A stretch of 30,448 bases of DNA from a virus, in the IMG/VR virus record IMGVR_UViG_3300029951_000412, positions 1 to 30,448 of that record; one strand, written 5' to 3'. The notes under the pieces are model-generated. The model had not been told where the DNA came from. It did no database searches and saw only the letters and a list, made by a program, of their open reading frames with translations. How positions within the stretch are numbered: the stretch's first letter is position 1; every line of letters begins with the position of its first letter. Below, one piece after another: positions 2,266 through 24,254 of the stretch. A program made the translations under genes and the position numbers.

Positions 2266-3312
2266 GTGATTCAGACACAACTAAAACTTCGGATGTGCAA
2301 GACACAAGAAAGAATTGCTGAGTCATGGCTTCCTATTCTCGGCTCTGTGTTCAACTTTGCAGTCAGAAAGATAGAACTCAACGCCAAGGACAAAATCTAT
2401 TTCTCCAAGAACGATTTCCAGAACCTACTGGCGAACCACGGAGAGCGGCTGGAGATTCCTAGCCACACGTTGCAGGGAGTTCTCTGCACTGTGCACGATG
2501 CGTGGAAGCGTTGCTTCAAGAAGATTGCTGGCAAGCCACGTCTTAAAGGAATGCGGAACAAACTCACCAGCATTCCGTTTCCTGACCCCATCAAGGCTCC
2601 GAAAGGTAATCGCATCACTCTGCCGAGTCTGGGTAGTGTCCGCTTCTACAAGATGGACATTCCAGATGGCAAAATCAAGTGCGGTCGCATGGTCAAACGT
2701 GCATCGGGTTGGTATCTCTGCCTGTTCATAGATGCAGAGCCAAAGAAGATTGAGCGGACTGGGTATGGAGAAATTGGAATAGACTCAGGCTTCTCGAATC
2801 TACTGACAACTTCGGACGGAGAAATCATCGAACACCCACGGGAGTTGGAAGCCAGTGCAGAACGATTGGCACAAGCACAACGTGGCCACGACAAGCATTT
2901 GGCTGCACGCATTCAGGAACGGGTTGCCAACCGCAAGAAAGATAGAAATCACAAGTTAACGACACGATTAGTTTCAGAAAACGTGCTCATCGTGTGGAGC
3001 AAGGATAACCACAAAGGAATAGCCAAGAAGTTTGGGAAGAGCGTGAGCAGTTCAGCCCACGCACAGATTCGAGGGATGCTGTCGTACAAGTCGCCCACAA
3101 GCGGTACGACATTCATCGAGGCTGCTTCCAAAGATTCCACCAAGACCTGTAACGAATGTGGGAGACCCTCTGGTCCTACAGGACTTGCGGGATTGTCGGT
3201 AAGAAGTTGGGTGTGTAGAGACTGTGGAGCCTCGCACGATAGAGACGTAAACGCCGCTATCAACACCCTCAACATCGGGGCAGGATGTGCCCACGAGGTT
3301 GCCTATGTCTAA
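2266..3312 (+). CDS. tnpB: TnpB-family RNA-guided nuclease, RuvC-II Glu apparently lost
   Basis: TnpB proteins use an omega/reRNA from their own 3' end to cut DNA and are ancestors of Cas12. This 348-aa protein has RuvC-I GIDSG (Asp173), a CNEC...CRDC zinc ribbon (295-320) and RuvC-III HDRDVNAA (Asp327). The RuvC-II block, normally IVxEDLNxKGM, reads LIVWSKDNHKGI, which puts Ser245 where the catalytic Glu belongs. It may be nuclease-dead, or may use a relocated acid such as Glu285 in TTFIEAASKD; rearranged sites are known in the family. Start is GTG with a strong AAAGGAGG site 5 bases upstream. The length is slightly short but within the family range. Confidence 0.88.
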   Translation: MIQTQLKLRMCKTQERIAESWLPILGSVFNFAVRKIELNAKDKIYFSKNDFQNLLANHGERLEIPSHTLQGVLCTVHDAWKRCFKKIAGKPRLKGMRNKLTSIPFPDPIKAPKGNRITLPSLGSVRFYKMDIPDGKIKCGRMVKRASGWYLCLFIDAEPKKIERTGYGEIGIDSGFSNLLTTSDGEIIEHPRELEASAERLAQAQRGHDKHLAARIQERVANRKKDRNHKLTTRLVSENVLIVWSKDNHKGIAKKFGKSVSSSAHAQIRGMLSYKSPTSGTTFIEAASKDSTKTCNECGRPSGPTGLAGLSVRSWVCRDCGASHDRDVNAAINTLNIGAGCAHEVAYV

Positions 3313-4450: not shown

Positions 4451-4852
4451 ATGCCCGGCCAACATCGTCACCGCACCCGCTTTGCCCGAGAGTACAACTC
4501 GTATAAGTCCGCCCAGCATCGCTGCCGTAATCCCCGTGACAAGGCGTGGAAATATTACGGCGGTCGAGGAATAGAGTTCCGCTTTACCAGCTTCGTCCAA
4601 TTCATCGCCGAGTTAGGCCCACGTCCCGAAGGTACGACCCTTGATCGCAAAGACAACGATGGTCATTACGAGCCCGGTAACGTGAAGTGGTCAACTCGGT
4701 CGGAACAGCGACTCAACAGTCGTTACTTAGGACGGTCAAAGTGCTCGTACATCAAGCACAGGGACATCACGCCTTGTGAGCACGAACCCAAACGATGTCG
4801 CGGTTGCTGTAGCCGTTGTTACAACCAGCAAGTGTACCAATCCCTAAAATAA
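4451..4852 (+). CDS. HNH homing-type endonuclease
   Basis: Protein of 133 aa of the phage HNH family. The signature runs WKYYGGRGIEF, then GPRPEGTTLDRKDNDGHYEPGN and VKWSTRSEQRLNSR (about residues 34-90). This is the classic pattern in which LDRxDNDGxYEPGN forms the metal finger. A C-terminal Cys-rich tail (CEHEPKRCRGCCSRC) probably binds zinc. Only ATG 4451 is in frame. The strong GGAGGGGG site upstream is spaced for ATG 4432 in another frame, which makes only a 24-codon leader overlapping this gene, so translation may be coupled or weak. Its position next to a broken terminase gene fits the habit of homing nucleases to sit in or near terminase genes. Confidence 0.88.
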   Translation: MPGQHRHRTRFAREYNSYKSAQHRCRNPRDKAWKYYGGRGIEFRFTSFVQFIAELGPRPEGTTLDRKDNDGHYEPGNVKWSTRSEQRLNSRYLGRSKCSYIKHRDITPCEHEPKRCRGCCSRCYNQQVYQSLK

Positions 4853-4885: not shown

Positions 4886-4902
4886 GGATTACTCCTCTCT
4901 GA
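4886..4902 (+). promoter_or_regulatory. Late-promoter-like motif, copy A
   Basis: GGATTACTCCTCTCTGA, one of five copies of NNATTAYTCCWNNSTGA in gaps before gene modules. Its last base is the A of the downstream ATG, so a transcript from here would be leaderless or start upstream. Confidence 0.5.
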
Positions 4903-5966
4903 TGACCACCTACGAATATATCGAGCTTGGCTTCGACTTCGGCGACCTAAGCTCCCTCAACTCCCTGTCCTCGGTCGGCTATAAAGTCGTCCATGTTGCC
5001 AAGATTCCCTCCTCCCAGTATGAGCCCCCTTACGTCGCCCTGCTGGAGCGTCCCCTTGAGGGTAAGGCTGCCCAAGACGCGGTGGACTATTACAGCAAGC
5101 CGGTCGGCCCAGCTATCAGGTCCGTTCAAGAGGGTGCCACTGTCGCAAAGCCCGCAGGGTCAAAGTTTCAGGATGCGCTCGCCTATGCTCGGGAGCATGG
5201 TACTGATATTCCGAACTGCGTAGCGTCGTATACATGCCCCGAAACGTGCAGTGTCACTAAGCCATCAGGCCACAATCCTTACGCCGTCTGGGTAGACAAC
5301 AAACTCGCTTACGATCCGCACGAGAAACAGATAGCCTTCCACTCTAACCCCGCCATCTTCCGCCTGTACGGGGGAGCCAAGGGCGGCGGCAAGAGCCTCT
5401 GCCTGCTGTGGGAAGCTATCACCTTCTGCCAGAACATTCCGGGCTGCCACGTCCTGTTGCTTCGCCGAACCTTCCCAGACTTGAACAAAACCCTGATGGA
5501 TCACTTCAGCAAGAAGATTCCATCCGCTGTTTACGGTGGGCCTCGCAACTGGAACCGTAACGATCACGTTGTGACTTTCCCCAACGGCTCCAAGCTGTGG
5601 TTTGGTGCTTGTCAGCATGAGCATGACGTATACGACTACAACGGTGGTGAGTACGTCTTCATCGGAATCGATGAGGCGACAGAGTGGACTTACGAGATGT
5701 TCCAGTACCTCACCCTCCAGAACCGCTGCCCGATCAAGATCGACAAGAATGGCAAGCCCGTGGTTCCGTGCATGGCTCTGGCGAGTAACCCCGGAGGCAT
5801 CGGCTCGGATTGGATTGAGGCTCTGTTCATCGGCAAGAAGAACGAGAAGGGCGAACTCGTCCGCAACATGGAAATCGCCAAAAAGTACACCCACGGCAAG
5901 ATCACTAAGTACGATCCGAGCCGCTACGCCTACATCTTCTCGTCCGTCTTCGACAACCCAGTATGA
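4902..5966 (+). CDS. Truncated terminase-like ATPase with DUF4177-like N-terminus
   Basis: Protein of 354 aa. Residues 1-52 (MTTYEYIELG...YVALLERP) resemble a DUF4177-type small domain. After a linker there is a packaging ATPase with Walker A GGAKGGGKS (157-165), Walker B VFIGIDEAT (Asp257, Glu258) and the coupling motif SNPGG (295-299). The C-terminal nuclease domain of large terminases is absent: the frame stops directly after FDNPV, inside the second copy of a 29-bp repeat whose first copy lies in the N-terminal domain. A complete second large terminase is encoded at 11998-13707, so this copy is probably a chimeric remnant or an ATPase-only paralogue. An assembly join at the repeat must also be considered. 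Confidence 0.8.
   Translation: MTTYEYIELGFDFGDLSSLNSLSSVGYKVVHVAKIPSSQYEPPYVALLERPLEGKAAQDAVDYYSKPVGPAIRSVQEGATVAKPAGSKFQDALAYAREHGTDIPNCVASYTCPETCSVTKPSGHNPYAVWVDNKLAYDPHEKQIAFHSNPAIFRLYGGAKGGGKSLCLLWEAITFCQNIPGCHVLLLRRTFPDLNKTLMDHFSKKIPSAVYGGPRNWNRNDHVVTFPNGSKLWFGACQHEHDVYDYNGGEYVFIGIDEATEWTYEMFQYLTLQNRCPIKIDKNGKPVVPCMALASNPGGIGSDWIEALFIGKKNEKGELVRNMEIAKKYTHGKITKYDPSRYAYIFSSVFDNPV
5014..5042 (+). repeat. 29-bp direct repeat, copy 1
   Basis: Perfect 29-bp match to 5957-5985, offset 943 bases. It lies in the DUF4177-like segment, where it encodes part of QYEPPYVAL. Confidence 0.95.
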
Positions 5967-7190: not shown

Positions 7191-8546
7191 ATGGCAACAT
7201 CCACAGTTACACCCCCAGTAGGTAGCGTAACTCCCCCCGCAGGAACAGGTGCGGGCGCAGGTAGCGGAGCGGGTACAGGCGCAGGAGATTCCGGCGCTGG
7301 TGGTGCGGGAGACGGCAAAGGTACGCCCACGACTCCCACCAAGTTAAACATCACTTTCGGCGATGGAGAAGCCGCCGAGTCTTTTGATTTAAGCGAAGAA
7401 GCCGCTGTCAGCGAACCTGAATTTAAGTTCGAGCAACTGGACGCCATCAAGGAAAGCAACGCCGACCTGTACAAAGCAGCCAAGGCTGAGTTGAGCAAGG
7501 CTGGTCGCTTCGGCAAGGTTGGCGAAAAGATCGGCGTCAAGAGCCCCGAGGATTTCAAGTCCCACGTGGAGCGCATCGACAAGCTGGTCACCACCATCGG
7601 TCGTCAGGACGGCAAAGTGGGGCTCGATGCACTGGAAGCCACTATCGGTGAACTGGCTAACACCCTCGTCAACGCCCGCAAGGGTGAGTTCGGCAACTGG
7701 TTCGAGAAAGACCCTGCCTCCCTCGCTGGTGCTGCTGCCAAGCTGAACGAGCAATGGGAAAAGACCGACGCCGCTGGATACAACGCCCACATAGCGCAGA
7801 AGGCATGGGGTGCCCTTGCCCAAAAAGATGCCGCTGGTTTTAGTGCCGTGGACGCACTGAATGCCCTGTACGACATCCCTGCGATCAAGAATGATCCTCA
7901 GGCTCAGAAATTACTCCAGCGTGCGGCCTACACTTTGAACCAAATCTCCCAGCAGTCGGAGTACAAGCCAGACGCCACGCTTAGCCTCAAAGCCAAGGAA
8001 GAACAGATTGCCGCCCGCGAAGCCAAGGTGTGGCAAGACCAAACCGATCTGGAAGTCACGCCTATCATCCGTACCGCCGCCCGCAAAGGCTTGTCCTCGT
8101 TGGTAAGCGAATTGAAGCGGGACATCACTCCAGAAGAGCGTGCAGAGTATCTCGACACGCTCGAAACGAGTTTCTACCAGCACGCCCAGAAGGACACGAA
8201 TTTCGCAACCAAGCTCAACGAGTTGGCGCAGAAGCTCGACCGGGAGGGAATCAAGGACTTGGTGAAGACCAGCAAAAACAAGTACATGACCGCCGCCCTG
8301 AAGGACTTGTACAAGGCGAAGCTGCTCGACCGTAAGGCTATCCGTGACGAAGCCGCAGGCAAGGGCGAAGCCAACGGCGGCGGGACGGGTGGAGCAGGCA
8401 AAGTGAGTTTGCAGTACAGCGGCAAGATGAAGTACGGCGCACCCGATGTCGCCTACGACTACGCCCGCATGAAAGCTGAAGACCCGAACATGCTTGAGAA
8501 CCACGAGTTCTACATCGTCGGGAAGAAAGAACGGATGCGATGGTAA
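7191..8546 (+). CDS. Possible scaffolding / head assembly protein
   Basis: Protein of 451 aa. Residues 1-45 are a Gly/Ala/Thr/Pro low-complexity tail. A largely helical, highly charged body follows, without transmembrane segments, and a Gly-rich hinge (GEANGGGTGGAGK) precedes a basic C-terminus. The length, helical content and disordered end fit phage scaffolding or core proteins, and no other scaffold candidate lies between portal and coat. There is no sequence motif that proves it, so the call rests on composition and context. The next gene starts inside its last codons. Confidence 0.5.
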   Translation: MATSTVTPPVGSVTPPAGTGAGAGSGAGTGAGDSGAGGAGDGKGTPTTPTKLNITFGDGEAAESFDLSEEAAVSEPEFKFEQLDAIKESNADLYKAAKAELSKAGRFGKVGEKIGVKSPEDFKSHVERIDKLVTTIGRQDGKVGLDALEATIGELANTLVNARKGEFGNWFEKDPASLAGAAAKLNEQWEKTDAAGYNAHIAQKAWGALAQKDAAGFSAVDALNALYDIPAIKNDPQAQKLLQRAAYTLNQISQQSEYKPDATLSLKAKEEQIAAREAKVWQDQTDLEVTPIIRTAARKGLSSLVSELKRDITPEERAEYLDTLETSFYQHAQKDTNFATKLNELAQKLDREGIKDLVKTSKNKYMTAALKDLYKAKLLDRKAIRDEAAGKGEANGGGTGGAGKVSLQYSGKMKYGAPDVAYDYARMKAEDPNMLENHEFYIVGKKERMRW

Positions 8547-8875
8547 CTGTCAACGCAAAATTCGCAGCCCTTCACCCGAACCTCATCCTGATATTTCTAT
8601 CTCGGGTTTTTGCAGAGTACGGAAACGTTCCAGAAGGAACTTTCCTGACTTCGCCAGAACAGGCGTGCGTGTGGGACAGCCTTGCTGAGCAGGTGGAACT
8701 TGTCCTCACCACTGCCACGCCCGAGAAGGACTATCTCAAACGTCCTCAACCATCAATGGCGGGCCGTCCTTTGGATATTGAGTTCTACCTTCGCCCCGAT
8801 GTCGTCGTGTTCCGCTTGGCGGGTAAGACCCTCGGCGTGATTGAAAATCTTGCAGTACCAGTGACGGTGAGCTAA
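8540..8875 (+). CDS. Hypothetical phage protein
   Basis: Protein of 111 aa overlapping the previous stop by seven bases. It shows alternating beta and helical segments (NLILIFLSRVFAEYG; FYLRPDVVVFRLAGKTLGVI) and no recognised motif. It ends at TAATG with the GroES-like gene, so it is translated in the same operon as the chaperonin pair. Confidence 0.7.
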   Translation: MVTVNAKFAALHPNLILIFLSRVFAEYGNVPEGTFLTSPEQACVWDSLAEQVELVLTTATPEKDYLKRPQPSMAGRPLDIEFYLRPDVVVFRLAGKTLGVIENLAVPVTVS

Positions 8876-9516
8876 TGCAATACGTTCAGAGCTTTAACGA
8901 TTTCGATTTCGCCGTCAAGATGGGCGTGCCCGTCGAGGAACTGACTGAGAAGTTCAACCTCACCCTCGATGAGCTTGACCAAGCTCTTGCCTTCTATCAC
9001 GACGGCAACAACCTCGATCTTGAGAAGCTACTCGGGTCGAAGGCAGTAGCCGCAGAAGAAGTCGAGGCAGAAGCTCCAGTCGCGTTCGAAATCTCAGAGC
9101 CCGAGAAGCCAGACTTCGGCTACCTCGCTGTTCCACGTCATAGCTTCATCTTCGTCAAGCCGCTCCCCAAGGAACACAAGGGACGCCTGATGATTCCGAA
9201 AGCCTACGAGAGCGATTCCGACATGGGCTTCGTCGAGTCAGTGGGCAAGGACGTTGCGGATGTCAAGGTCGGCGACTTAGTGCTGTTCGACAAGTACGCA
9301 GAAGTAGGTGCGCGATTCAACCTCATCAACCGTGAGGGGGAGTTGGTGGATTTGATTCAGATGATGGAAGTTAACGTCACCGCTATCCTCACTCGCATCA
9401 AGCTCGGTCTACCTGACCTTGCGTGGGAAGAGAAAGAACAGGCTTGGACTCGCCCCGCCGAGGTTGAGATTAGTGAGCACATGGCGAAGTCCGAACTTTT
9501 CAGGGATGGTGAGTAA
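8875..9516 (+). CDS. GroES-like co-chaperonin with N- and C-terminal extensions
   Basis: Protein of 213 aa, twice the size of GroES (97). The GroES fold is seen at about 86-172: HSFIFVKPLPKEHKGRLMIP, then GFVESVG, VKVGDLVLFDKYAEV and a final ILTRI. These match GroES DRVLVKP, GIVLP, VVAVG, KVGDxVLF and AIL elements. The mobile-loop region is short. The extra N-terminal helical domain (1-80) and the C-terminal 40 residues have no recognised homology. It lies directly upstream of the GroEL-like gene with a TAATG overlap, so the two probably form a phage folding chamber for capsid or tail proteins. Confidence 0.85.
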   Translation: MQYVQSFNDFDFAVKMGVPVEELTEKFNLTLDELDQALAFYHDGNNLDLEKLLGSKAVAAEEVEAEAPVAFEISEPEKPDFGYLAVPRHSFIFVKPLPKEHKGRLMIPKAYESDSDMGFVESVGKDVADVKVGDLVLFDKYAEVGARFNLINREGELVDLIQMMEVNVTAILTRIKLGLPDLAWEEKEQAWTRPAEVEISEHMAKSELFRDGE

Positions 9517-11048
9517 TGGGTACACAGAATGCATTCGGTGAAGAAGCCCGCAATCACCTTCTCGAAGGTGCAGAACAACTGAGCATCGCAGTTGGCAAGA
9601 GCATGGGGCCGATGGGACGTAATACGTTCATCGACTACGCTCCGGGTCATCCGATCTGTCCGATGAGCACCCGTGACGGCGTGACCATCGCCCGCAATTT
9701 TTACCTTGAAGGCTTCCCCGACACAGGGAACCGTGCAGTCCGTGCAGCCTCAGAGAAGGCAGCCTCGGACGCTGGGGATGGCACTTCGGCTGCCGTGGTA
9801 CTCGCCTACTCCCTGTTCAAACATGGATTAGAGGCTCAGAAGATCAAAAATGTAGTTGCCGTCAAAAAAGAAATTGAGCAGGGCGTTGAATTCGCCTGTG
9901 CGGAAATCGACCGCACGAAGGTCAATGTCAGCGGCGACATGATGAAGCAAGTCGCAACTATCGCCGTGAACAACGACCCCGTGCTCGGCGGACTTATTGT
10001 TGATGCTATGCGTAAGGCGGGAGCAAGCGGCTTAGTTGCCGTAGAAGACTCCCCGTCCAACGAGACTACGATTGAGCGGCAGGAAGGGATGCAGTTCGAC
10101 GAGGGATACCTCAGCGGTGCGTTTGTAAACAATGCGGAACGCCAGATTGTGGAGTTCCAGCAACCCGTGATTCTGCTCATCGACCGCGCTATCAGTTCCT
10201 TGCAGGGTCTCGTACCGCTGTTTGAAGGAATCGCCAAGAGCAGCAATCCGCTGCTCATCATCGCCGAGAACGTTGTAGGCGAGGCGTTGGCGACTATCGT
10301 CATGAACAAGCTGAAGGGCACTTTCGCTGTCTGTGCCGTCAAGCTGCCTGAGAATCTTGGGCACCGCAAAGACCTGTTACTCGACATCGCCGCCGTAACA
10401 GGAGGACAAGCCATCCTGCAAGAGTTGGGATTGGACTTGTCGAAGCTTCCGCCACAGGCTCTCGGACGTGCTGCCAAGGTTGTAGTCACGTCGAAGAACA
10501 CTCGCATTATTGGCGGCTTCGGAAAGAAGGAAGCGATTGAAAAACGAATCGAAGAAATCAGAGGGCTCCTCACCCAAAGCCCCACGAAGCTTGAACAAGA
10601 ACGCCTACAGGAGCGTCTGGCAAAGCTTACGGGAGGAGTCACCATCCTGCGTCTTGGGGCACAGACCGGGATCGAACTCGGGGACAAGAAGGCCCGCTGC
10701 GAAGATGCGTGCCTCGCAACCCGCTGTGCGCTCGAAGACGGGATCGTTGTCGGTGGAGGAATGGCGCTTGCCCGGATAGCCCAGATGTTACCCGAAGGTA
10801 TCGTGAGCAAGGCGTTACGCCGTCCCGCTCTGCAAATTCTGGAGAATGCGGGATACGGTGAGACGGAACTCACCAAAGCCCTGACTACTTCTGCGGGTTT
10901 CAATTCCCTCACGGGCAAGTACGGCGATCTGATTGAAATGGGTGTTATCGACCCCGCCAAGGTTATCAAGAGCAGTCTCCGCAATGCAGCTTCAGTTGCC
11001 TGCCAGATGCTACTCACTGAGTTGATAACACAAACCGTGGAGAAGTAG
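9516..11048 (+). CDS. groEL-like: Phage GroEL-like chaperonin
   Basis: ATP-driven folding chamber subunit, 510 aa versus 548 in E. coli GroEL. Nucleotide-site elements are intact: MGPMGRNT (30-37), TRDGVTIAR with Asp54 (GroEL Asp52), GDGT with Asp88 (GroEL Asp87), EDACLATRCALEDG with Asp397 (GroEL Asp398) and GGG at 413-415. The apical GYLS element lies near 197. The C-terminal Gly-Gly-Met tail is absent; it ends TVEK. Chaperonins encoded by phages are known but uncommon, usually in large phages. Here it lies in the morphogenesis cluster with its own GroES-like partner, so a structural-protein client is likely (inference). Confidence 0.95.
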   Translation: MGTQNAFGEEARNHLLEGAEQLSIAVGKSMGPMGRNTFIDYAPGHPICPMSTRDGVTIARNFYLEGFPDTGNRAVRAASEKAASDAGDGTSAAVVLAYSLFKHGLEAQKIKNVVAVKKEIEQGVEFACAEIDRTKVNVSGDMMKQVATIAVNNDPVLGGLIVDAMRKAGASGLVAVEDSPSNETTIERQEGMQFDEGYLSGAFVNNAERQIVEFQQPVILLIDRAISSLQGLVPLFEGIAKSSNPLLIIAENVVGEALATIVMNKLKGTFAVCAVKLPENLGHRKDLLLDIAAVTGGQAILQELGLDLSKLPPQALGRAAKVVVTSKNTRIIGGFGKKEAIEKRIEEIRGLLTQSPTKLEQERLQERLAKLTGGVTILRLGAQTGIELGDKKARCEDACLATRCALEDGIVVGGGMALARIAQMLPEGIVSKALRRPALQILENAGYGETELTKALTTSAGFNSLTGKYGDLIEMGVIDPAKVIKSSLRNAASVACQMLLTELITQTVEK

Positions 11049-11997: not shown

Positions 11998-13707
11998 ATG
12001 GCTATCGACTTAGATTCGCCTTACATACTCGACCAAGCGGGTGACCTTGGGCCGAAGTACAGGGTATACGAAAATCGAGACGGGACTGAAGCTGGGCTCC
12101 GACTTATCACGCCCAAGGGATTCCCTCACGCTCGACAGTTAGAGTATCTGGAATCCGTGAGCCCTTACACGTTCTTCGCGGGACAACGGGGCAACGGTAA
12201 AACTTTTTGCGCGGTCTTTGACAACCTATTCCGAGCGTATCGAGTTCCCGGCTGCCAACAGATCATCTTCCGCCGCACGATGGGTGAGTTACGCCGCACC
12301 ATCATCGCCGAGTTCCTGAAACTGCCTGAACGTTTGCGTGGACGTTTCACCGACAGCGCGGTCTCCCCACGGCTACAGTTCGACAACGGCAGCGTGATTC
12401 ACTTCGCCTCGGTTAACGACGAAGCCGCTGCCCGCAAATATCTGTCAGGAGAATTCCTGACGGTCACCTTCGACGAGTGGTGCGAAATCCCGTTCAAGTG
12501 GTGGTCGTTCATCACTGGTTCCGCCCGATCAACTATCACGCATGACTGGAAGGGCAGCCCAGTTATTGCTCAGATCAAGGGATTGAGTAACCCCGGTGGT
12601 GTGGGTGCCGACGTATTGCGGCACCTGTTTGGTGCGGATTGTCCGAAGGCATGTCCGAAGAACCTCGACATCCTGTACGACGCAGGTGATTACTACTTCA
12701 TCCCCGCCATCTTGGATGACAACCCAGCCTACGGCCCCACTACATCCGCAGGCAAGGCGTATCGCAAGATGCTGGACGCCCAGCCCAAGGCGATTCGCAA
12801 CGCTTGGAAATACGGCAAGTGGACGGGCTTCGAGGGCATGTATTTCGATGTCTACGACAAAGACATCACTGTCATTCCGCGTGACAAAGTTCTGACTTTG
12901 ATGGCACGCCAGTGGTGGATGCCCGTGGGTCTGGGTATCGACGTAGGTACGGTGCACCACGCTTACGTCTGCTGGAACACGCTTGTGGAACTCCCTCTGC
13001 AAAACGGAGAGAAGCACATCTTCGTTCTGACATTCAGGGAGTTGCTCAAGAAGGGGTTGAGCGAACGCGGACTCGCTGGAGCGGTTCTCGATGAGATGGA
13101 GGGCGACGATAAGCTGAAGAAGCGCATCAGCAAAATCTACCTCTCGCCAGAAACGTTTGGCGAAGGTTCTCGCACCCGAGCCCGTGTAATCGGCGATGTG
13201 TTTGTGGCTGATGGTGTGCCTCGCCCCATTCCCAGTAAGACGGAAAAGTATAGCCGTCCAAACGGACTGCGGCAGATGTTCACCCTACTGGCGGAACGTA
13301 ACGTGTTGCTCGATGGGTGGACGGAAGGCAATGTTGTTCCTGACTGGCTTATCAGCGAAGACTGCGTGGAGTTACTGGAAGCTCTTCCGTGGGCTACCTC
13401 TGACCCCGAGCATGATGGGGACATCAAGAAGGAAGGCGACGACCCAAAGCTCGATGTGCTGGACGGCACTCGGTACTTCATCTACTCGAACCACACCTCG
13501 GGAGAGAAGCCGCCGTCTGAAGTTTACAAAGAGAAGATGGAACTCATCTCGCAGGGCGGCATTACCCCGATGAAGAGTATGCGCCTGTTTGTAGAGCACT
13601 ACCGCAGGATGCAGGAATTGCGGACGTTGGGTGCCAAACAACAGAGCCAGATTGCTCAGTGGTCTCGGTCACGTCATCCCCGTACCAGAATGCCGAAGGT
13701 GGGCTAA
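11998..13707 (+). CDS. terL: Terminase large subunit (complete)
   Basis: DNA packaging motor and headful nuclease, 569 aa. ATPase: Walker A GQRGNGKT (62-69), Walker B LTVTFDEW (Asp159, Glu160), coupling motif LSNPGG (196-201). RNase-H-fold nuclease: LGIDVGT with Asp315 and a late acidic cluster KLDVLDGTRY (Asp486/Asp489). Domain order and length are normal, so this is the working terminase, unlike the fragment at 4902-5966. The two share only the general motifs, so the fragment is not a recent duplicate of it. It precedes the portal by about 2.3 kb of small genes. Confidence 0.93.
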   Translation: MAIDLDSPYILDQAGDLGPKYRVYENRDGTEAGLRLITPKGFPHARQLEYLESVSPYTFFAGQRGNGKTFCAVFDNLFRAYRVPGCQQIIFRRTMGELRRTIIAEFLKLPERLRGRFTDSAVSPRLQFDNGSVIHFASVNDEAAARKYLSGEFLTVTFDEWCEIPFKWWSFITGSARSTITHDWKGSPVIAQIKGLSNPGGVGADVLRHLFGADCPKACPKNLDILYDAGDYYFIPAILDDNPAYGPTTSAGKAYRKMLDAQPKAIRNAWKYGKWTGFEGMYFDVYDKDITVIPRDKVLTLMARQWWMPVGLGIDVGTVHHAYVCWNTLVELPLQNGEKHIFVLTFRELLKKGLSERGLAGAVLDEMEGDDKLKKRISKIYLSPETFGEGSRTRARVIGDVFVADGVPRPIPSKTEKYSRPNGLRQMFTLLAERNVLLDGWTEGNVVPDWLISEDCVELLEALPWATSDPEHDGDIKKEGDDPKLDVLDGTRYFIYSNHTSGEKPPSEVYKEKMELISQGGITPMKSMRLFVEHYRRMQELRTLGAKQQSQIAQWSRSRHPRTRMPKVG

Positions 13708-14948: not shown

Positions 14949-16016
14949 ATGCCAACAGTCGGCGCAGTTCGATCAATTTACCCCGGTACACGGGCACTTC
15001 TCATGGGTTACGACCAAGTGTACGGTGGGCCTATCGGCCCGTCTTCACTCGTTGACCCTTGGCTGGACACGGCGTCGTTGTTTACCCTCCTTGCCGCATC
15101 CACGATTACTAATAGCGGCTCCAGCGTCATCGCTGGTGGAAACGTCGGACTCTACCCCGGCACTTCGATCACAGGATTCCCTCCGGGCGTTGTCACTCCT
15201 CCCGCCACGATTCAGCTAACTACTCCAGCCGCAGAGCAGGCCGAAGTTGACGCCAACAACGCCTACCTCCATTTCCAAAGCCTCCCCGCTGGAACGGTTG
15301 AATCTACCCTCGACGGTCTCACTTTGACTCCCGGTACTTACACCAGCGCAAGTTCGATGGCACTGAGCGGCGGTCAAACACTGACGCTTAACGGCGCAGG
15401 ACTTTACGTATTCCAGATTGGCTCCACTCTGACAGTCGGCGTCGGTGCAACCGTTGCCTTGACTGGTGGAGCGACGGCAACAAACGTGATTTGGCAGGTC
15501 GGTAGCTCAGCCACGATTGACGGCCCCGGCACCACGATGGTTGGAACCATCATTGCGCTTGATAGCGTGACCCTCGGCGGCGGAACACTGAATGGTCGGG
15601 CTCTTGCCTTGACCGCTGCGGTGACTATCGCGACAGCCGAAGACGCCACTTCCCCACAGACAGGTCCGGGCGTTGGCCCAACGGCAGAGAATTTACCGGG
15701 CAATGCGGCTTCAGTGCCGATTGTCATCGCCCCCCGTACTCCGAATCAGAACTCACTACGCACAGTTGTGTGGCGTGCGTTCCCTGCTGGAGCAACAGTT
15801 GATCTGGCATTCCAAGTCAGCATCGACGCCAATCCTTTGAACTTCGTGACCGTGGATACCTACAGCGGCACGGGAAATAGTGGCAACAGAGAAATTCAGG
15901 CCGATCAGGTCACAGGAGCACAGTCTGCGGCCATGTCCTCAGCCCGTTTCTGCCGTGTGTTGAACCTGAGCGGCACGGCGGTGAGCAGCCTCATTGTGGA
16001 CTTCACTGCCCAATAA
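14949..16016 (+). CDS. Ice-binding-like (DUF3494) domain protein
   Basis: Protein of 355 aa. Residues about 40-232 carry the DUF3494/ice-binding-like beta-solenoid. Hallmarks are LLAASTITNSGSSVIAGGNVG, PGTSITGFPPGVV, LTLTPGTYTS, YVFQIGSTLTVG, VIWQVGSSATI and TIIALDSVTLGGGTLNGRAL. Family members include secreted ice-binding proteins and adhesins, and not all bind ice. There is no signal peptide, unlike cellular members. A beta-rich C-terminal domain (about 260-355) of unknown type follows. It sits between small head genes and the portal, so a capsid decoration or surface-attachment role is likely (inference). Confidence 0.85.
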   Translation: MPTVGAVRSIYPGTRALLMGYDQVYGGPIGPSSLVDPWLDTASLFTLLAASTITNSGSSVIAGGNVGLYPGTSITGFPPGVVTPPATIQLTTPAAEQAEVDANNAYLHFQSLPAGTVESTLDGLTLTPGTYTSASSMALSGGQTLTLNGAGLYVFQIGSTLTVGVGATVALTGGATATNVIWQVGSSATIDGPGTTMVGTIIALDSVTLGGGTLNGRALALTAAVTIATAEDATSPQTGPGVGPTAENLPGNAASVPIVIAPRTPNQNSLRTVVWRAFPAGATVDLAFQVSIDANPLNFVTVDTYSGTGNSGNREIQADQVTGAQSAAMSSARFCRVLNLSGTAVSSLIVDFTAQ

Positions 16017-16028
16017 GTAGGAGCCTAA

Positions 16029-18530
16029 ATGAGCAGCACAGCACAAGCACCCACTCAGGATGCTTACAGTGACATTGCCGAGAAGTACGCACCGGGGGAA
16101 ACCTACGGTACGTCTGCCTCTTCCATTCGGAAGGGGTCATACGGCAAGAAAAATCAACTCATCGACGACAAGTACAAGGATGCGTGGCGTGCTCTCGTCA
16201 CGAAAATCCAGCACCGAGATATGTTCGCCCGCATTGAGGAAGTCAAACGTGCGGCGGACGGCGGCTTCTACTGGCGTAACATCTTCGACGCCTTCTGGAG
16301 TGACTTGCAGTTTACGTGGATGCAAGGAGCGGGCTCGGCTGGATTGGGCAACGACTCCAACGGTAACTCCGAAACCCTGTCTTACCCCCTGAATATCTAT
16401 CAAGCCTTTGGCCGTGCGTACATGAAGATCGTGGGGCACCAGCCTGAGGTGCACATTGTCGCTTCTGGCGATAGCGCCACTGCTTTGCAAATGGCGGACG
16501 GTGCGAACCACCTTCTGGAAGAAATCCAAGCCATCAATCAGGACGCCAACCTACCGCAAGAATTCGCCGTGCAATCTTACACGGGCGGGCGCTATGGAAT
16601 TTACACCCGCTGGGTAGCTGACGGCTCTCGTTTCGGTTACTACGACGAGGATGAAGACGATGAGGGCATGGCGGAAGGCGTCGGACAAGGCTCCGAGAAC
16701 CCTCCCAAGAAAAAGCCTCGTCAGCCAAGGGGCGGCGAAGTCCAGTCCCTCTACGGCGTGCCGTGGTTAAAAGTTCCTATCAACATGAAGCACATCCACG
16801 AGTTTGCGTGGCTGATGCTTAGCGACGAAATTGACCTGAGTGCTGCCAAGTCCCTTTACCCGTGGATCGCAAAACGGATTCAAGCAGGAGAACCCGGACC
16901 AGCAGAGTTCATGTTCGACCGCACAACGCGAATCGCACTCACGCAGGGTCTTCACCTTGTAAGCCAGATGGCCGAGGCACTGGATCAGTTACCGACCATC
17001 CAAACAATCTGGGTGCGACCCTGCATGTTTGCGGAGATTGATGACGAAGAGTGCCGTGAGTGGTTCGAGGACAACTATCCCGATGGGGGATGTGTGGTGT
17101 TCTTGGGCAACGAGTATGCGGAATCCCGCAATGAGAGCATGGATGACCATTGGTCGATAGGTCACGCAGTGAAGGGACACGGCCAAGCTACGCCCGCTTA
17201 CGGGGCAAGCATGTTGGTTGCCCAAGACGCCTTCTCAGATGTGTTCGATCTGGAAATGGAAACGCACATGCGTGCAATTCCCGCCATCCACTTCGACCCC
17301 GATACATTCGACCTGTCTGCCCGCAGCAAGCAGAAGGCAAACCCCGGCGCTGCATACCCTCTGAAGCACGGATTGGAATCGAATATCAACGTCGGACAGA
17401 AAGCTTTTGCCGAGCCTGCGGTCAGCGTGAGTGCTCAGCTTCTCCAGACACGTACCGATTTAGCTACAACGCTCTCGACCGTAGTCACTGGTATTTCTCC
17501 AGCGGCAGTAGGACAGGCTGATGAAAATAACACGACTCTTGGTGGAATCTCAATCCTGCGTGCGGCTTCACGTGGCGAGGCAGGCACGGCTTTTGAAGGC
17601 TTCATCCGTTGCTATTCGAAATCCTGCGAACAGGCAATCCGCATCGGTGCCAAATATCGTCTCGCCGAGGCTGATGCAGACGGCGTGCTCACGATCAAAA
17701 AGAAGGGACACCCCGATGTCCTCGTGAATTTGATTGATCTACGGGACGGCAACATCTGGTGCGTGCCCGATACCGACCAGACTTACCCGAGCACATTCGA
17801 GGAAGAGCAACTCGCTTTGACTCAGTTGACCATGGCTGCCCAAACGGGCGACGAAAGCGCCAAAGCCGCATTGAATGACCCCGGCAACCAAGAGCGCATC
17901 TCGCAACTCCGTGGGATCAGCGGCATGAAGTCTTCTGTCGGCGACATTGGCATGAAGGTTAGTCAAACTATCGACATGCTGCTTGTCCAACCGCCAGTCC
18001 CGAACGAGCAGGCAGTGCAAGCCGCACAAATGGTCATCCTGCAAGCAGTGGCATCTGGACAACAGCCCCCGACGCCCGAAGAGTCGGACAAGTACAAGCT
18101 CTTCAAGTCGTCCATGGAACCCGGCCCGCTTGATGACGTGACAAAAGAGTTGCCGTTTATCACGGCGTGGATTTACTCGCCTACAGGACAGCGGAATCGC
18201 TTCAACAATCCTGACGGGTTCTTGAATGTCGAGCTTTATGGACTGTCACTACAGGCGAAAATCCAGCAGCAGATGGAGCAGGCACAAGCCGCTGCCGTCA
18301 AGCCGCAGCTTGCAATCGAAGCTGCCAAGAAACAGCCGACAGCGAAGGCACCGCCACATCCGAGCGAGAGCATTAACTACAAAGACGCGGGCCACGCTGT
18401 GCAAATGCAGATGGAAGCTCAAGCTGGTCTTGACGGGACTGCGGATCACGCCGCCGCCCTGACGGAAGAGCAGCTTAATCCGCCTCAACCCCCAACTCCC
18501 GCTGCCCCGCGCAAGCTCAAGAGGAAGTAA
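16029..18530 (+). CDS. Portal protein (P22-like)
   Basis: Forms the dodecameric ring at the capsid vertex through which DNA is packaged and ejected. It is 833 aa (P22 gp1 is 725). Features are an N-terminal helical wing, an acidic insertion (DEDEDDEGMAEG) and a central SIGHAVKGHGQATPAYGASMLVAQDAFSD segment. ATTLSTVVTGISPAAVGQADENNTTLGG follows, and the long C-terminal helical barrel is rich in Gln/Ala (KIQQQMEQAQAAA) and carries PSESINYKD. The start has TAGGAG 6 bases upstream. The next gene begins at the base after its stop. Confidence 0.85.
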   Translation: MSSTAQAPTQDAYSDIAEKYAPGETYGTSASSIRKGSYGKKNQLIDDKYKDAWRALVTKIQHRDMFARIEEVKRAADGGFYWRNIFDAFWSDLQFTWMQGAGSAGLGNDSNGNSETLSYPLNIYQAFGRAYMKIVGHQPEVHIVASGDSATALQMADGANHLLEEIQAINQDANLPQEFAVQSYTGGRYGIYTRWVADGSRFGYYDEDEDDEGMAEGVGQGSENPPKKKPRQPRGGEVQSLYGVPWLKVPINMKHIHEFAWLMLSDEIDLSAAKSLYPWIAKRIQAGEPGPAEFMFDRTTRIALTQGLHLVSQMAEALDQLPTIQTIWVRPCMFAEIDDEECREWFEDNYPDGGCVVFLGNEYAESRNESMDDHWSIGHAVKGHGQATPAYGASMLVAQDAFSDVFDLEMETHMRAIPAIHFDPDTFDLSARSKQKANPGAAYPLKHGLESNINVGQKAFAEPAVSVSAQLLQTRTDLATTLSTVVTGISPAAVGQADENNTTLGGISILRAASRGEAGTAFEGFIRCYSKSCEQAIRIGAKYRLAEADADGVLTIKKKGHPDVLVNLIDLRDGNIWCVPDTDQTYPSTFEEEQLALTQLTMAAQTGDESAKAALNDPGNQERISQLRGISGMKSSVGDIGMKVSQTIDMLLVQPPVPNEQAVQAAQMVILQAVASGQQPPTPEESDKYKLFKSSMEPGPLDDVTKELPFITAWIYSPTGQRNRFNNPDGFLNVELYGLSLQAKIQQQMEQAQAAAVKPQLAIEAAKKQPTAKAPPHPSESINYKDAGHAVQMQMEAQAGLDGTADHAAALTEEQLNPPQPPTPAAPRKLKRK

Positions 18531-19154
18531 ATGGACGATAAGAAGCCCATTGCCTACGTGATGCGTCATGGGGACACGGATTTGAACGACGACAATGCGT
18601 TCAGAGGGATGTTAGACCCCTGTCTCAACGATGAGGGCGTTGTGCAGGCTCACAAAGCCGCAGAATTCCTCTCCCGACAAAATATTGAGCGAGTAATCTG
18701 CTCTCCGCTGCACCGTGCGGTGCAGACTGCCGAAATTGTGAGTGGAACTCTTGGCGGACGCTGCATCGAGCAGTCGAGATGCCTTTTTCCGTGGCAGATA
18801 GCCCCACTTTACGGTAAGGACAAGGACGAATTCGCAGAAGCACTCGATCACTTCGTCGATAATCCAACTGAGACCCCCAAAAACGGAGAATCGCTCTCGG
18901 ATTTCATCGAAAGAGTCGGAGACTTCTTCGAAGACAAGCTCTGCCCGCATTGTGTGACGCTTTTCGTTTGTCATACCTCGAATATTGTCGCCTTGAACGA
19001 CATCATCAACGGCACCTCCGAAGGCAGTCCCGAAAGTGGCGAAGTTGTAGCTCCGGGCGGCATCTGTGCCATCTACTGCGACGAGGACGAAGACGGCGGG
19101 TACGAGATAGAACCCATTTTTGGTGAAACTCATGACGCCGAGTTTGGAAGTTAA
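18531..19154 (+). CDS. Histidine phosphatase superfamily protein
   Basis: Phosphoglycerate-mutase-like phosphatase of 207 aa. The catalytic RHG motif is in YVMRHGDTD (His13), SPLHRAVQTAE supplies Arg62, NGESLSDFIERV supplies the acid near Glu120, and FVCHTSN supplies the second histidine (His148). The core residues are present, so it may be active; the substrate is unknown. It is wedged between portal and coat genes, where scaffolds or proteases are usual, so a virion-assembly or host-signalling function is possible (inference). Confidence 0.85.
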   Translation: MDDKKPIAYVMRHGDTDLNDDNAFRGMLDPCLNDEGVVQAHKAAEFLSRQNIERVICSPLHRAVQTAEIVSGTLGGRCIEQSRCLFPWQIAPLYGKDKDEFAEALDHFVDNPTETPKNGESLSDFIERVGDFFEDKLCPHCVTLFVCHTSNIVALNDIINGTSEGSPESGEVVAPGGICAIYCDEDEDGGYEIEPIFGETHDAEFGS

Positions 19155-19412: not shown

Positions 19413-20786
19413 ATGGCCTCAGATACCCTTAATAGCGCATCTGCCCTGTACGTTGAGATTGAAAAGCTCAACGCTTCGGTCTATCCCCAGTTTAACCAAG
19501 ACGCCAAGTTCTACGGTCGCCTTCAGAACCAAGAGCAGTTCAAGGTCTCTGAACGTCTCGTCCGTATCCCGCTGCTTGTGCAGCCGGGTTCTACCTTCGC
19601 ACAGTTCGTCCCAGACGGCACAACCGATTCAATGGGCACGGGCGGCGGCGAACAGTACGACGCTGGTGTAGCATCCCCCGTCTTCTTCGTGCAGGCTTGC
19701 CAAGTCACGAAGGGTGCCGAGTGGAGCACAGACGGCAAGGAAAAGTCCGTCGTAGATGTCTACAAGGACAGCTTCCGCATCAACCTCAAGGCGTTCCGCA
19801 CCAACCTCGAAGCTCTCATGGCTGTCTCTGACGGCTCTGGCGCTCTGGGAACGGTCACCATCACGCCGACCACAACCTTCATGAACGTCAGCAACGCCAA
19901 TGATTTTCAGGCGGGCGCTTACTACCAAGTAGTCGCTGCTGGGTACGGCGCAAACCGTGGGTACTTCCAAGTCCTCACCGCTGACCTTATCAACAACATC
20001 CTGTATCTCGTGGATGGCGGAACCGGAACCCCCGGTCAGTATTTCCCGACTGGCACAATCGCCACGGACATCCTGATCGTTCTCGGTGCCAACGGTATGC
20101 TCACCCAGACCTACACCCCTGACCGTTACACCTCCGCGACAACGTCTGCGTCTTTGAACGGCATTCCTGCCATCAACTACCAGTCTTCCAGCGGCGACTG
20201 GTTCGGTATTCCGCGCAGCACTTGGCCCGGCGTCCTGAACTCTGCCTACGTGAACGGACAGTCCGACGCCCTTGTTCCTCAGATGTTCCAGTTGATGGAG
20301 TCGCTCTTGCAGCGTGCCAACGGCTCGGACGCTGATGAACTCACGGACTTCGTGGTTCACTGCAACGTGGATCAGGTGACGGCATGGGAAAACCTCGGCC
20401 TGTACACCTCGGGTACGTCGGCTTCAACCCACTACGCTCCTGCTGGTGTGGCAACGGCCTTCACCCCGCGTCAGGACGGCGACACTCGCAAGGATTACTT
20501 GCCTGAGCAGCGTCTCCGCTCGATGGCTGGTCACGAGTTGATTACCAACATCAAGGCAAAGCAACAGCGCATTGATGCGATCAACTTCAAATACTGGTTC
20601 AAGACCGAAGTGAAGCCGCCTTCCCTCTTCGACGTAGGTGGGATGACGACCTTCCCGCTGTACGGCTCTGACGGTGGTGTGGCTCCGACCACGGCGTTCT
20701 ACTTCGTGTTCGGTGGTCAGATCGCAAACGCCAAGCCTCGTGCAGGCGCTTACATCGACACACTCGCTCTTCCATACGGTTTCTAA
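19413..20786 (+). CDS. Major capsid protein (HK97 fold)
   Basis: 457-aa coat protein. The N-terminus ALYVEIEKLNASVYPQFNQDAKFYGRL is followed by an E-loop-like and spine-helix region (DVYKDSFRINLKAFRTNLEALMAV). A beta insertion (about 145-230) comes next, then the A-domain end (QRIDAINFKYWFKTEVKPPSLFDVGGMTTFPLYG). The C-terminus AYIDTLALPYGF is typical of an HK97-type coat. It has no obvious cleavable prodomain, which fits use of a separate scaffold. It is a single gene between a promoter-like motif and a terminator, with a good AGGAG site, so it is probably strongly and independently expressed. Confidence 0.85.
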   Translation: MASDTLNSASALYVEIEKLNASVYPQFNQDAKFYGRLQNQEQFKVSERLVRIPLLVQPGSTFAQFVPDGTTDSMGTGGGEQYDAGVASPVFFVQACQVTKGAEWSTDGKEKSVVDVYKDSFRINLKAFRTNLEALMAVSDGSGALGTVTITPTTTFMNVSNANDFQAGAYYQVVAAGYGANRGYFQVLTADLINNILYLVDGGTGTPGQYFPTGTIATDILIVLGANGMLTQTYTPDRYTSATTSASLNGIPAINYQSSSGDWFGIPRSTWPGVLNSAYVNGQSDALVPQMFQLMESLLQRANGSDADELTDFVVHCNVDQVTAWENLGLYTSGTSASTHYAPAGVATAFTPRQDGDTRKDYLPEQRLRSMAGHELITNIKAKQQRIDAINFKYWFKTEVKPPSLFDVGGMTTFPLYGSDGGVAPTTAFYFVFGGQIANAKPRAGAYIDTLALPYGF

Positions 20787-23248: not shown

Positions 23249-23272
23249 GTCTTTATGAGGGCTGTACCAGAT

Positions 23273-23303
23273 GAGCCGCTCTTCGGGGCGGCTCTTGTCT
23301 TTT
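23273..23303 (+). terminator. Rho-independent terminator
   Basis: Stem GAGCCGC/GCGGCTC (23273-23279 with 23288-23294) followed by TTGTCTTTT. Motif copy D begins at the next base, so the terminator and the presumed promoter are back to back. Confidence 0.9.
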
Positions 23304-23320
23304 GGATTATTCCATAGTGA
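23304..23320 (+). promoter_or_regulatory. Late-promoter-like motif, copy D
   Basis: GGATTATTCCATAGTGA, immediately after a terminator and 13 bases before the adaptor start codon. The following GG completes GTGAGG, which can serve as the ribosome binding site. Confidence 0.6.
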
Positions 23321-23333
23321 GGGTTTCTCCGAA

Positions 23334-24254
23334 ATGCCAACACCGACAACGCCTTACCCAACAGCCCAAGATGCCTTGAATGCAGCGATCACCTTCGCCA
23401 ACGACGGTGGGTCACCTCTGGGCATGGCGGGCAACATCCTGAATCCAAGCCGCAATCCGCAGGTTCTCCCAACCTTGCAGGAATGCTGGATTTACCTTCA
23501 GCAACGGCTGATTTCAAATGGCGTCGATACCTTCACCAAAACAGCCCCTATTTTCGGTCTTCCTGCTGCTGCTACCTCCTCGCGTCGGGCGGTGATGCTT
23601 CTAACCTACAACGGGTTCTTCGACGGCCTTACTTGGTCGGGTCCGAATATCACCGCCCCGCTTTGGTCTAACGCAGTCACTTACACACAAGGTCAGACCG
23701 TGACCTACAACAACGTCTATTACGTGGCTCTGCCGAACTCGGCGACAAACTTGAATCAGGAGCCAGATACGGCGACAACCTTCTGGGTGATCTTCACGAA
23801 CATCGGGCCGTGCCTACCGCCTGACCTTGTGAAGCCGCTGGAGATTAGCGAGTGCAACACAGGAGGGCCTGCGTGGGTGCCGATGGCACAGTGCCCAGAT
23901 GTTCTCGCGAACAATCTGATTACGGCTCGATTCCGTAAGTGGGCATTTTCGAACAACACGCTGAAGCTGCCCCCAGCCTCGCAGATGAACGACATTCTGC
24001 TGACTTACTTGGCTATGGCACCGCCCATCGCCACACTGCAAAGCCCGCTTATGGTTCCGGGCGTTGCACGAGCACTCGGTCTACAGGTTCTCTACGTACT
24101 CTCAGGCGGACGCGGCGGGCCGATGGCGGATACGTACAAGGTGTGGGCTGAGGAAGCCATCAATCAAATCCTCAACCAGACGGTGCGTAAGCAAGCGTAC
24201 TCGAATTTTGAACGTCCTCCGTATCGTGGTGGGCGACGTGGACGGAGAGGGTAA
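23334..24254 (+). CDS. Head-tail adaptor-like protein with CBM5/12-like insert
   Basis: Protein of 306 aa. The N- and C-terminal helical parts (TAQDALNAAITFAND..., TYKVWAEEAINQILNQTVRKQAYSNF) resemble podovirus adaptor/connector proteins that bind below the portal. Inserted at about 110-154 is a chitin-binding-like module (PLWSNAVTYTQGQTVTYNNVYYVAL...FWVIF) with the WxxxxxYxxGxxVxYxxxxYxA...W pattern of CBM5/12. ATG 23334 is chosen because the longer read crosses the terminator and motif D. Such glycan-binding inserts may help surface contact. Adaptor identity is inferred from order and shape. Confidence 0.6.
   Translation: MPTPTTPYPTAQDALNAAITFANDGGSPLGMAGNILNPSRNPQVLPTLQECWIYLQQRLISNGVDTFTKTAPIFGLPAAATSSRRAVMLLTYNGFFDGLTWSGPNITAPLWSNAVTYTQGQTVTYNNVYYVALPNSATNLNQEPDTATTFWVIFTNIGPCLPPDLVKPLEISECNTGGPAWVPMAQCPDVLANNLITARFRKWAFSNNTLKLPPASQMNDILLTYLAMAPPIATLQSPLMVPGVARALGLQVLYVLSGGRGGPMADTYKVWAEEAINQILNQTVRKQAYSNFERPPYRGGRRGRRG

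Follow-up and report, generated by a model that had tools for sequence, protein, structure and literature searches.

An ice-binding-like DUF3494 domain within a small conserved protein encoded next to the presumed portal gene of a phage

What is a domain of the ice-binding family DUF3494 doing in a phage gene that lies next to a presumed portal gene, and does its product serve the infected cell or the virus particle? The question is raised by a viral record of 30,448 bases (the window, by which we mean this whole stretch), in which an open reading frame at 14949-16016 on the plus strand encodes a protein of 355 residues. A sequence-only reading had described this protein as an ice-binding-like domain of about 190 residues with a fused C-terminal beta domain and no signal peptide, and had placed its gene in a head-gene cluster with small genes on one side and the portal on the other. 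It had suggested a capsid decoration protein that could bind ice, surfaces or glycans. The label of capsid decoration derives from gene order only, and the analysis below considers what else the protein and its relatives can say about it.

The locus and its DUF3494 domain

The features of the window that are used throughout are as follows.

11998-13707, plus strand: terminase large subunit (PF03237 and phrog_979; terminases of isolate phages are about 25% identical)
14949-16016, plus strand: the 355-residue reading frame, a small beta-protein interrupted by DUF3494 (Pfam, translation)
14949-15044, plus strand: N-terminal segment of the small protein family called A2 here, residues 1 to about 32, edge approximate (phmmer match to residues 1-51 of the relative in locus L004 and 6-23 of that in L005)
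about 15045-15680, plus strand: the whole inserted stretch, about residues 33 to 244, edges approximate (comparison with A2 relatives)
15090-15635, plus strand: DUF3494 / Ice_binding (PF11999) beta-solenoid, residues 48-229 (Pfam, phmmer, AlphaFold2, fold search)
15681-16013, plus strand: C-terminal beta-segment of the A2 family, residues about 245-355 (phmmer to L005 and L004, hhalign against A2)
16029-18530, plus strand: presumed portal protein, 833 residues (position and size only)
18531-19154, plus strand: histidine phosphatase, directly 3' of the presumed portal (Pfam)
19413-20786, plus strand: presumed major capsid protein, 457 residues (position; 58-76% identity in relatives)

Several small genes sit between the terminase and the reading frame of interest, which is preceded by a Shine-Dalgarno-like GAGGAA and separated from the next frame by 12 nt. 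The placement given in the sequence-only reading therefore holds as a position, with the terminase upstream and the 833-residue gene 12 nt downstream, but the portal itself lacks a family match. This protein has relatives in at least 80 viral loci, and neither it nor they match any family in PHROGs, Pfam or the PDB, so that the name 'portal' reflects position and size only. The presumed major capsid protein likewise matches no family or PDB entry, and is followed by tail-fibre repeats and other genes.

Further features of the window are recorded here in their own right. A second frame resembling the terminase large subunit (4902-5966, plus strand) comprises the ATPase half only (phrog_979, E 2.9e-31), shares 28% identity with the full terminase (11998-13707), and has an HNH endonuclease (4451-4852) just 5' of it. 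A pair of phage chaperonins is encoded on the plus strand, GroES-like at 8875-9516 and GroEL-like at 9516-11048, and the GroEL region shows DNA similarity to the related record L004. An IS605 OrfB/TnpB-type transposase (Cas12f1-like TNB domain) lies at 2266-3312 (plus strand), and a weak match to the chitin-type module CBM_5_12 at 23271-24254 (plus strand; E 4.5e-4, below cut-off). In L005, a gene at 8413-8991 that looks similar to the window's histidine phosphatase is also found 3' of the portal. A weak hint of the host comes from a portal relative in one of 396 Acidobacteriota genomes.

The identity of the central domain is confirmed, well beyond what chance would give, by sequence and by fold. 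PF11999 is the single Pfam family in the frame, matching residues 48-229 with E 6e-39 and a score of 134 bits, where the cut-off is 28.7, and covering positions 2-204 of the 208 in the model. Within the PDB, phmmer matched 24 DUF3494 structures, with 6EIO the best (E 1.5e-32, residues 39-227). AlphaFold2 modelled the solenoid over residues ~41-230 with pLDDT 91-98, as a series of short strands with a single long helix (residues 93-110), and all 31 PDB matches of this fold at E<=0.001 were ice-binding or DUF3494 proteins, the nearest solved structure again being 6EIO (rmsd 1.4 Å, TM 0.81). The ice-binding-like domain of the sequence-only reading is thus borne out, as is the absence of a signal peptide, since the sole long hydrophobic stretch of the protein lies within the first strands of the solenoid. 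The C-terminal part was poorly modelled (pLDDT 40-60). The model was built from an alignment of 32 homologues, all of them DUF3494 homologues, because MAFFT misplaced the small A2 proteins when they were aligned to the full protein, and its C-terminal part is for that reason unreliable.

By sequence and fold, the domain belongs to the same family as type 1 ice-binding proteins (PF11999; for example, 6EIO and AnpIBP, 7BWX). It differs from them in being encoded by a virus, in having no signal peptide, which cellular members usually have although it does not define the domain, and in lying within a phage structural-type scaffold.

A small protein on both sides of the domain

The regions that flank the domain were compared with related phages, using the N-terminal and C-terminal parts separately as queries against 4458 reading frames from 79 loci that contain relatives of the presumed portal. 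With the C-terminal part as query, phmmer ranked L005 (E 5.8e-13) and L004 (E 2.6e-7) best, in both cases through a gene that lies upstream of the presumed portal. These two genes encode small proteins that are collinear with the N-terminal part too and are without DUF3494. The L004 protein aligns in the same order with residues 1-50 and then 244-345 of the whole window protein, two blocks that lie side by side in L004, and alignments in which long gaps were cheap gave shuffle z-scores of 12.2 and 6.8. The beta-protein encoded upstream of the portal in related phages has 120-160 residues, corresponding to residues 1 to ~32 plus ~245-355 of the window protein.

An iterated profile recovered this small A2 protein in 13 loci of portal relatives; a single A2 member used as the query in a collection scan recovered only itself. 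The synteny is close in nine of these loci (L004-L012), where the A2 gene is directly 5' of the presumed portal or one gene away: it ends ~9-16 nt ahead of it in L004, L006, L007, L008 and L011, and is separated from it by one extra gene in L005, L009, L010 and L012. In four more distant loci (L015, L017, L038, L058) it lies further upstream. Matching by hhalign of a 12-member A2 family, from which the window had been left out, gave P 1e-8 with the C-terminal part of the window protein and no match with its DUF3494 part.

Relatives thus encode both flanks joined, at the same place and without DUF3494, which identifies the domain, on sequence comparison, as an insert of ~210 residues in a conserved small protein, with edges near residues 33 and 244. 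This architecture, DUF3494 inserted in a small protein common to related phages, is the main new result. The C-terminal beta domain described earlier is real, and the fuller picture is one of insertion, in which residues 1 to ~32 belong to the same small protein. The other A2 members lack DUF3494 and some have an extra gene before the presumed portal instead. Three such genes (L005 5531-5956, L010 3530-5914, L012 4940-5953) are unrelated and, judged by reading their sequences, are lysozyme-like, a long beta protein and LamG-like, as if the gap between A2 and portal were a site for optional cargo.

The nature of the A2 scaffold is less sharply defined. For the member from L005, the AlphaFold2 model is beta-rich and of medium confidence (pLDDT 69), and its fold matches were weak and generic, including CBM6-like and Cry jelly-rolls, small uncharacterised phage proteins and, weakly, a capsid chain of phage Carin1 (8CJZ, E 0.036). 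Single A2 members match the 'tail protein' phrog_17517 (E 3.5e-5), and the family matched no curated functional family. These fold and PHROG matches fit a small particle protein, with its site on the particle left unspecified; it could belong to the head, neck or tail, or possibly be a non-virion protein.

DUF3494 in other viruses and the origin of the insert

When viral contigs were scanned with a profile, DUF3494 turned up at 43 loci, and a genome scan succeeded with an alignment as query, a single protein having found no relative. For the most part, the viral carriers are large fusion proteins that lack a signal peptide; among DUF3494 proteins, a crude score gave a signal-peptide-like start to one of the 47 from viruses and to 76 of the 106 from cells. 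In three records (L085, L086, L088), DUF3494 sits between two halves of Baseplate_J in one frame of ~2,580 residues. The order of matches is Baseplate_J up to model position ~132-145, DUF3494 (residues 1359-1550 in L085), then Baseplate_J ~178-253, and therefore places DUF3494 within a long insertion inside Baseplate_J. Matches to baseplate wedge families were also seen for the DUF3494 proteins of L090 and L094, and in L093 the domain shares a frame of 1139 residues with a tail-sheath match whose E of 4.5e-6 is below Pfam's cut-off. The N-terminus of the L111 protein looked sheath-like; Pfam gave no confirmation, and it was left out of the count. A group of fusions that appear FN3-like by eye includes L096, whose carrier has a weak match to a head-decoration PHROG (E 2.5e-5). 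Genes adjoining the viral DUF3494 genes (L085-L126) match baseplate and tail families.

Several phages have more than one DUF3494 domain, placed in separate structural-type genes of one contig (L085 with L091, L090 with L103, L100 with L110), and in L091, L103 and L110 the domain occurs twice within one protein. The commonest family matches among neighbours of the viral genes (L085-L126) are endonuclease VII and HNH, which might point to how DUF3494 modules move. The nesting within Baseplate_J and sheath frames and the near absence of signal-peptide-like starts make DUF3494 in phages look like a recurrent accessory module of virions rather than a secreted antifreeze gene. In this respect, the general idea of a surface module borne by the particle is supported, and strengthened by the occurrence of DUF3494 in Baseplate_J and tail-sheath proteins elsewhere.

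Within the window's own phage group the domain is rare. A PF11999 search of 50 portal-related records found it only in the one that is near-identical to the window, and in none of the 49 others. Related phages thus keep a homologue of the small protein in this conserved place, but the DUF3494 part belongs to this phage alone. In searches of 50,697 isolate-phage records, tblastn with the window protein gave no matches, and with a DUF3494 consensus none at E 1e-3.

An assembly chimera, in which a cellular DUF3494 gene was joined to a phage gene, had nothing in its favour. It is extremely unlikely, and largely refuted, because the domain stands in an open frame both in the window and in the second record, two sequences that are 99.8% identical yet separated by 26 mismatches and one gap in 16,847 bases. 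Furthermore, a quick tree placed 32 of 50 viral DUF3494 domains in one group (support 83), and the window's domain, on a long branch of unsure exact placement, falls with these mostly viral sequences and not with cellular ones, at moderate support.

An alternative with more weight, although still improbable, is a chance or recent passenger insertion, in which the scaffold would tolerate DUF3494 with no selected function. Among the 50 portal-related records the insert occurs in a single phage lineage, known from the window and its near-identical record, so a recent and non-adaptive insertion is possible; its base composition matches that of its flanks, which is in keeping with a passenger and also means that its age cannot be read from composition. 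The intact frame, a solenoid core conserved across a long branch and the recurrence of the fold in many unrelated phage structural proteins all argue against a passenger.

A proposed virion module and its possible ligands

The Ig-like accessory domains of phages occur as insertions in proteins of the capsid, tail and baseplate. The module proposed here would resemble them in being an optional, mobile surface domain found in diverse virion proteins and missing in close relatives, with the virion role of the window's scaffold being inferred. It is unlike them in its fold, a beta-solenoid with a bracing helix rather than an Ig sandwich, and in interrupting a small protein internally. They are the closest analogy: in mechanism the window's domain would sit with the Ig-like accessory domains, and in family it belongs to DUF3494.

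The best explanation overall, to which we give somewhat better than even credence, is a structural protein with an adhesion module that is borne by a scaffold and displayed on the virion. An uncultivated tailed phage would make the product of 14949-16016 as one of its late structural proteins. The scaffold is the small beta-sandwich protein whose gene is found in related phages too, directly 5' of the presumed portal, and the solenoid of ~190 residues (~210 with linkers) is inserted near the scaffold's N-terminus, in a loop past residue ~32. The scaffold would dock on the particle, in the head or the neck/portal region, with the solenoid facing outwards and serving as an optional module for adhesion, in the manner of phage Ig-like domains, so that free particles could be tethered to ice, a mineral or polysaccharide surface, or the host envelope. 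The comparisons above establish the DUF3494 fold, its insertion in a conserved scaffold, the conserved synteny, the missing secretion signal and the return of the domain in baseplate and sheath proteins of phages. Incorporation into the virion, outward display and adhesion are what we infer here; display of the window's domain on the virion is itself rather probable, without being assured.

A different role has been published for viral genes of this family. Three PF11999 genes in Arctic vOTUs were read as auxiliary genes with possible host cryoprotection (PMC11515562), and the genome of Synechococcus phage S-SKS1, a viral homologue named in that work, gave no PF11999 match. Applied to the window, the protein would be kept in or released from the infected cell and would protect the host against freezing. 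Both are virus-encoded PF11999 genes, but the anatomy of the window points to a virion module: the protein has no signal peptide, its domain lies inside a scaffold that phages lacking DUF3494 also conserve, the gene lies between the terminase and the presumed portal with a gap of 12 nt, and other phages fuse DUF3494 to baseplate and sheath proteins. We therefore consider a non-virion auxiliary gene quite unlikely for this locus. Our literature search, with subscription journals mostly outside its reach, found no paper describing DUF3494 as a virion module.

For a virion-displayed module, a narrower question is whether it truly binds ice, so that particles would adsorb to ice crystals or the walls of brine channels, or gain protection during freezing and thawing. 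The solved structures nearest to the domain bear the names of ice-binding or antifreeze proteins, and since ice binding by DUF3494 needs no conserved sequence motif (PMC7966756), the window's sequence is compatible with it. However, the nearest cellular relatives of the window's domain come from mixed taxa and from sites that are not exclusively frozen, and DUF3494 has been described in substrate-binding proteins too (PMC12337378). A specific affinity for ice is thus possible, if somewhat unlikely on what is at hand.

A wider proposal, put forward tentatively as less likely than not, is that DUF3494 may serve environmental phages quite generally as a display module of the virion that moves horizontally, occurring in portal-proximal, baseplate and sheath proteins and giving affinity for ice or other surfaces, which would make it a second accessory class beside Ig-like folds. 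The list of folds used as optional surface modules of virions would then be widened beyond Ig-like domains, and a host-protecting auxiliary role should not be the default label for viral 'ice-binding' genes. Some phages may display a domain on their particles that grips ice or other surfaces. If particles do carry domains of the ice-binding fold, this could let phages partition onto particles or ice crystals, persist through freeze-thaw, or become concentrated near their hosts in brine channels and soils.
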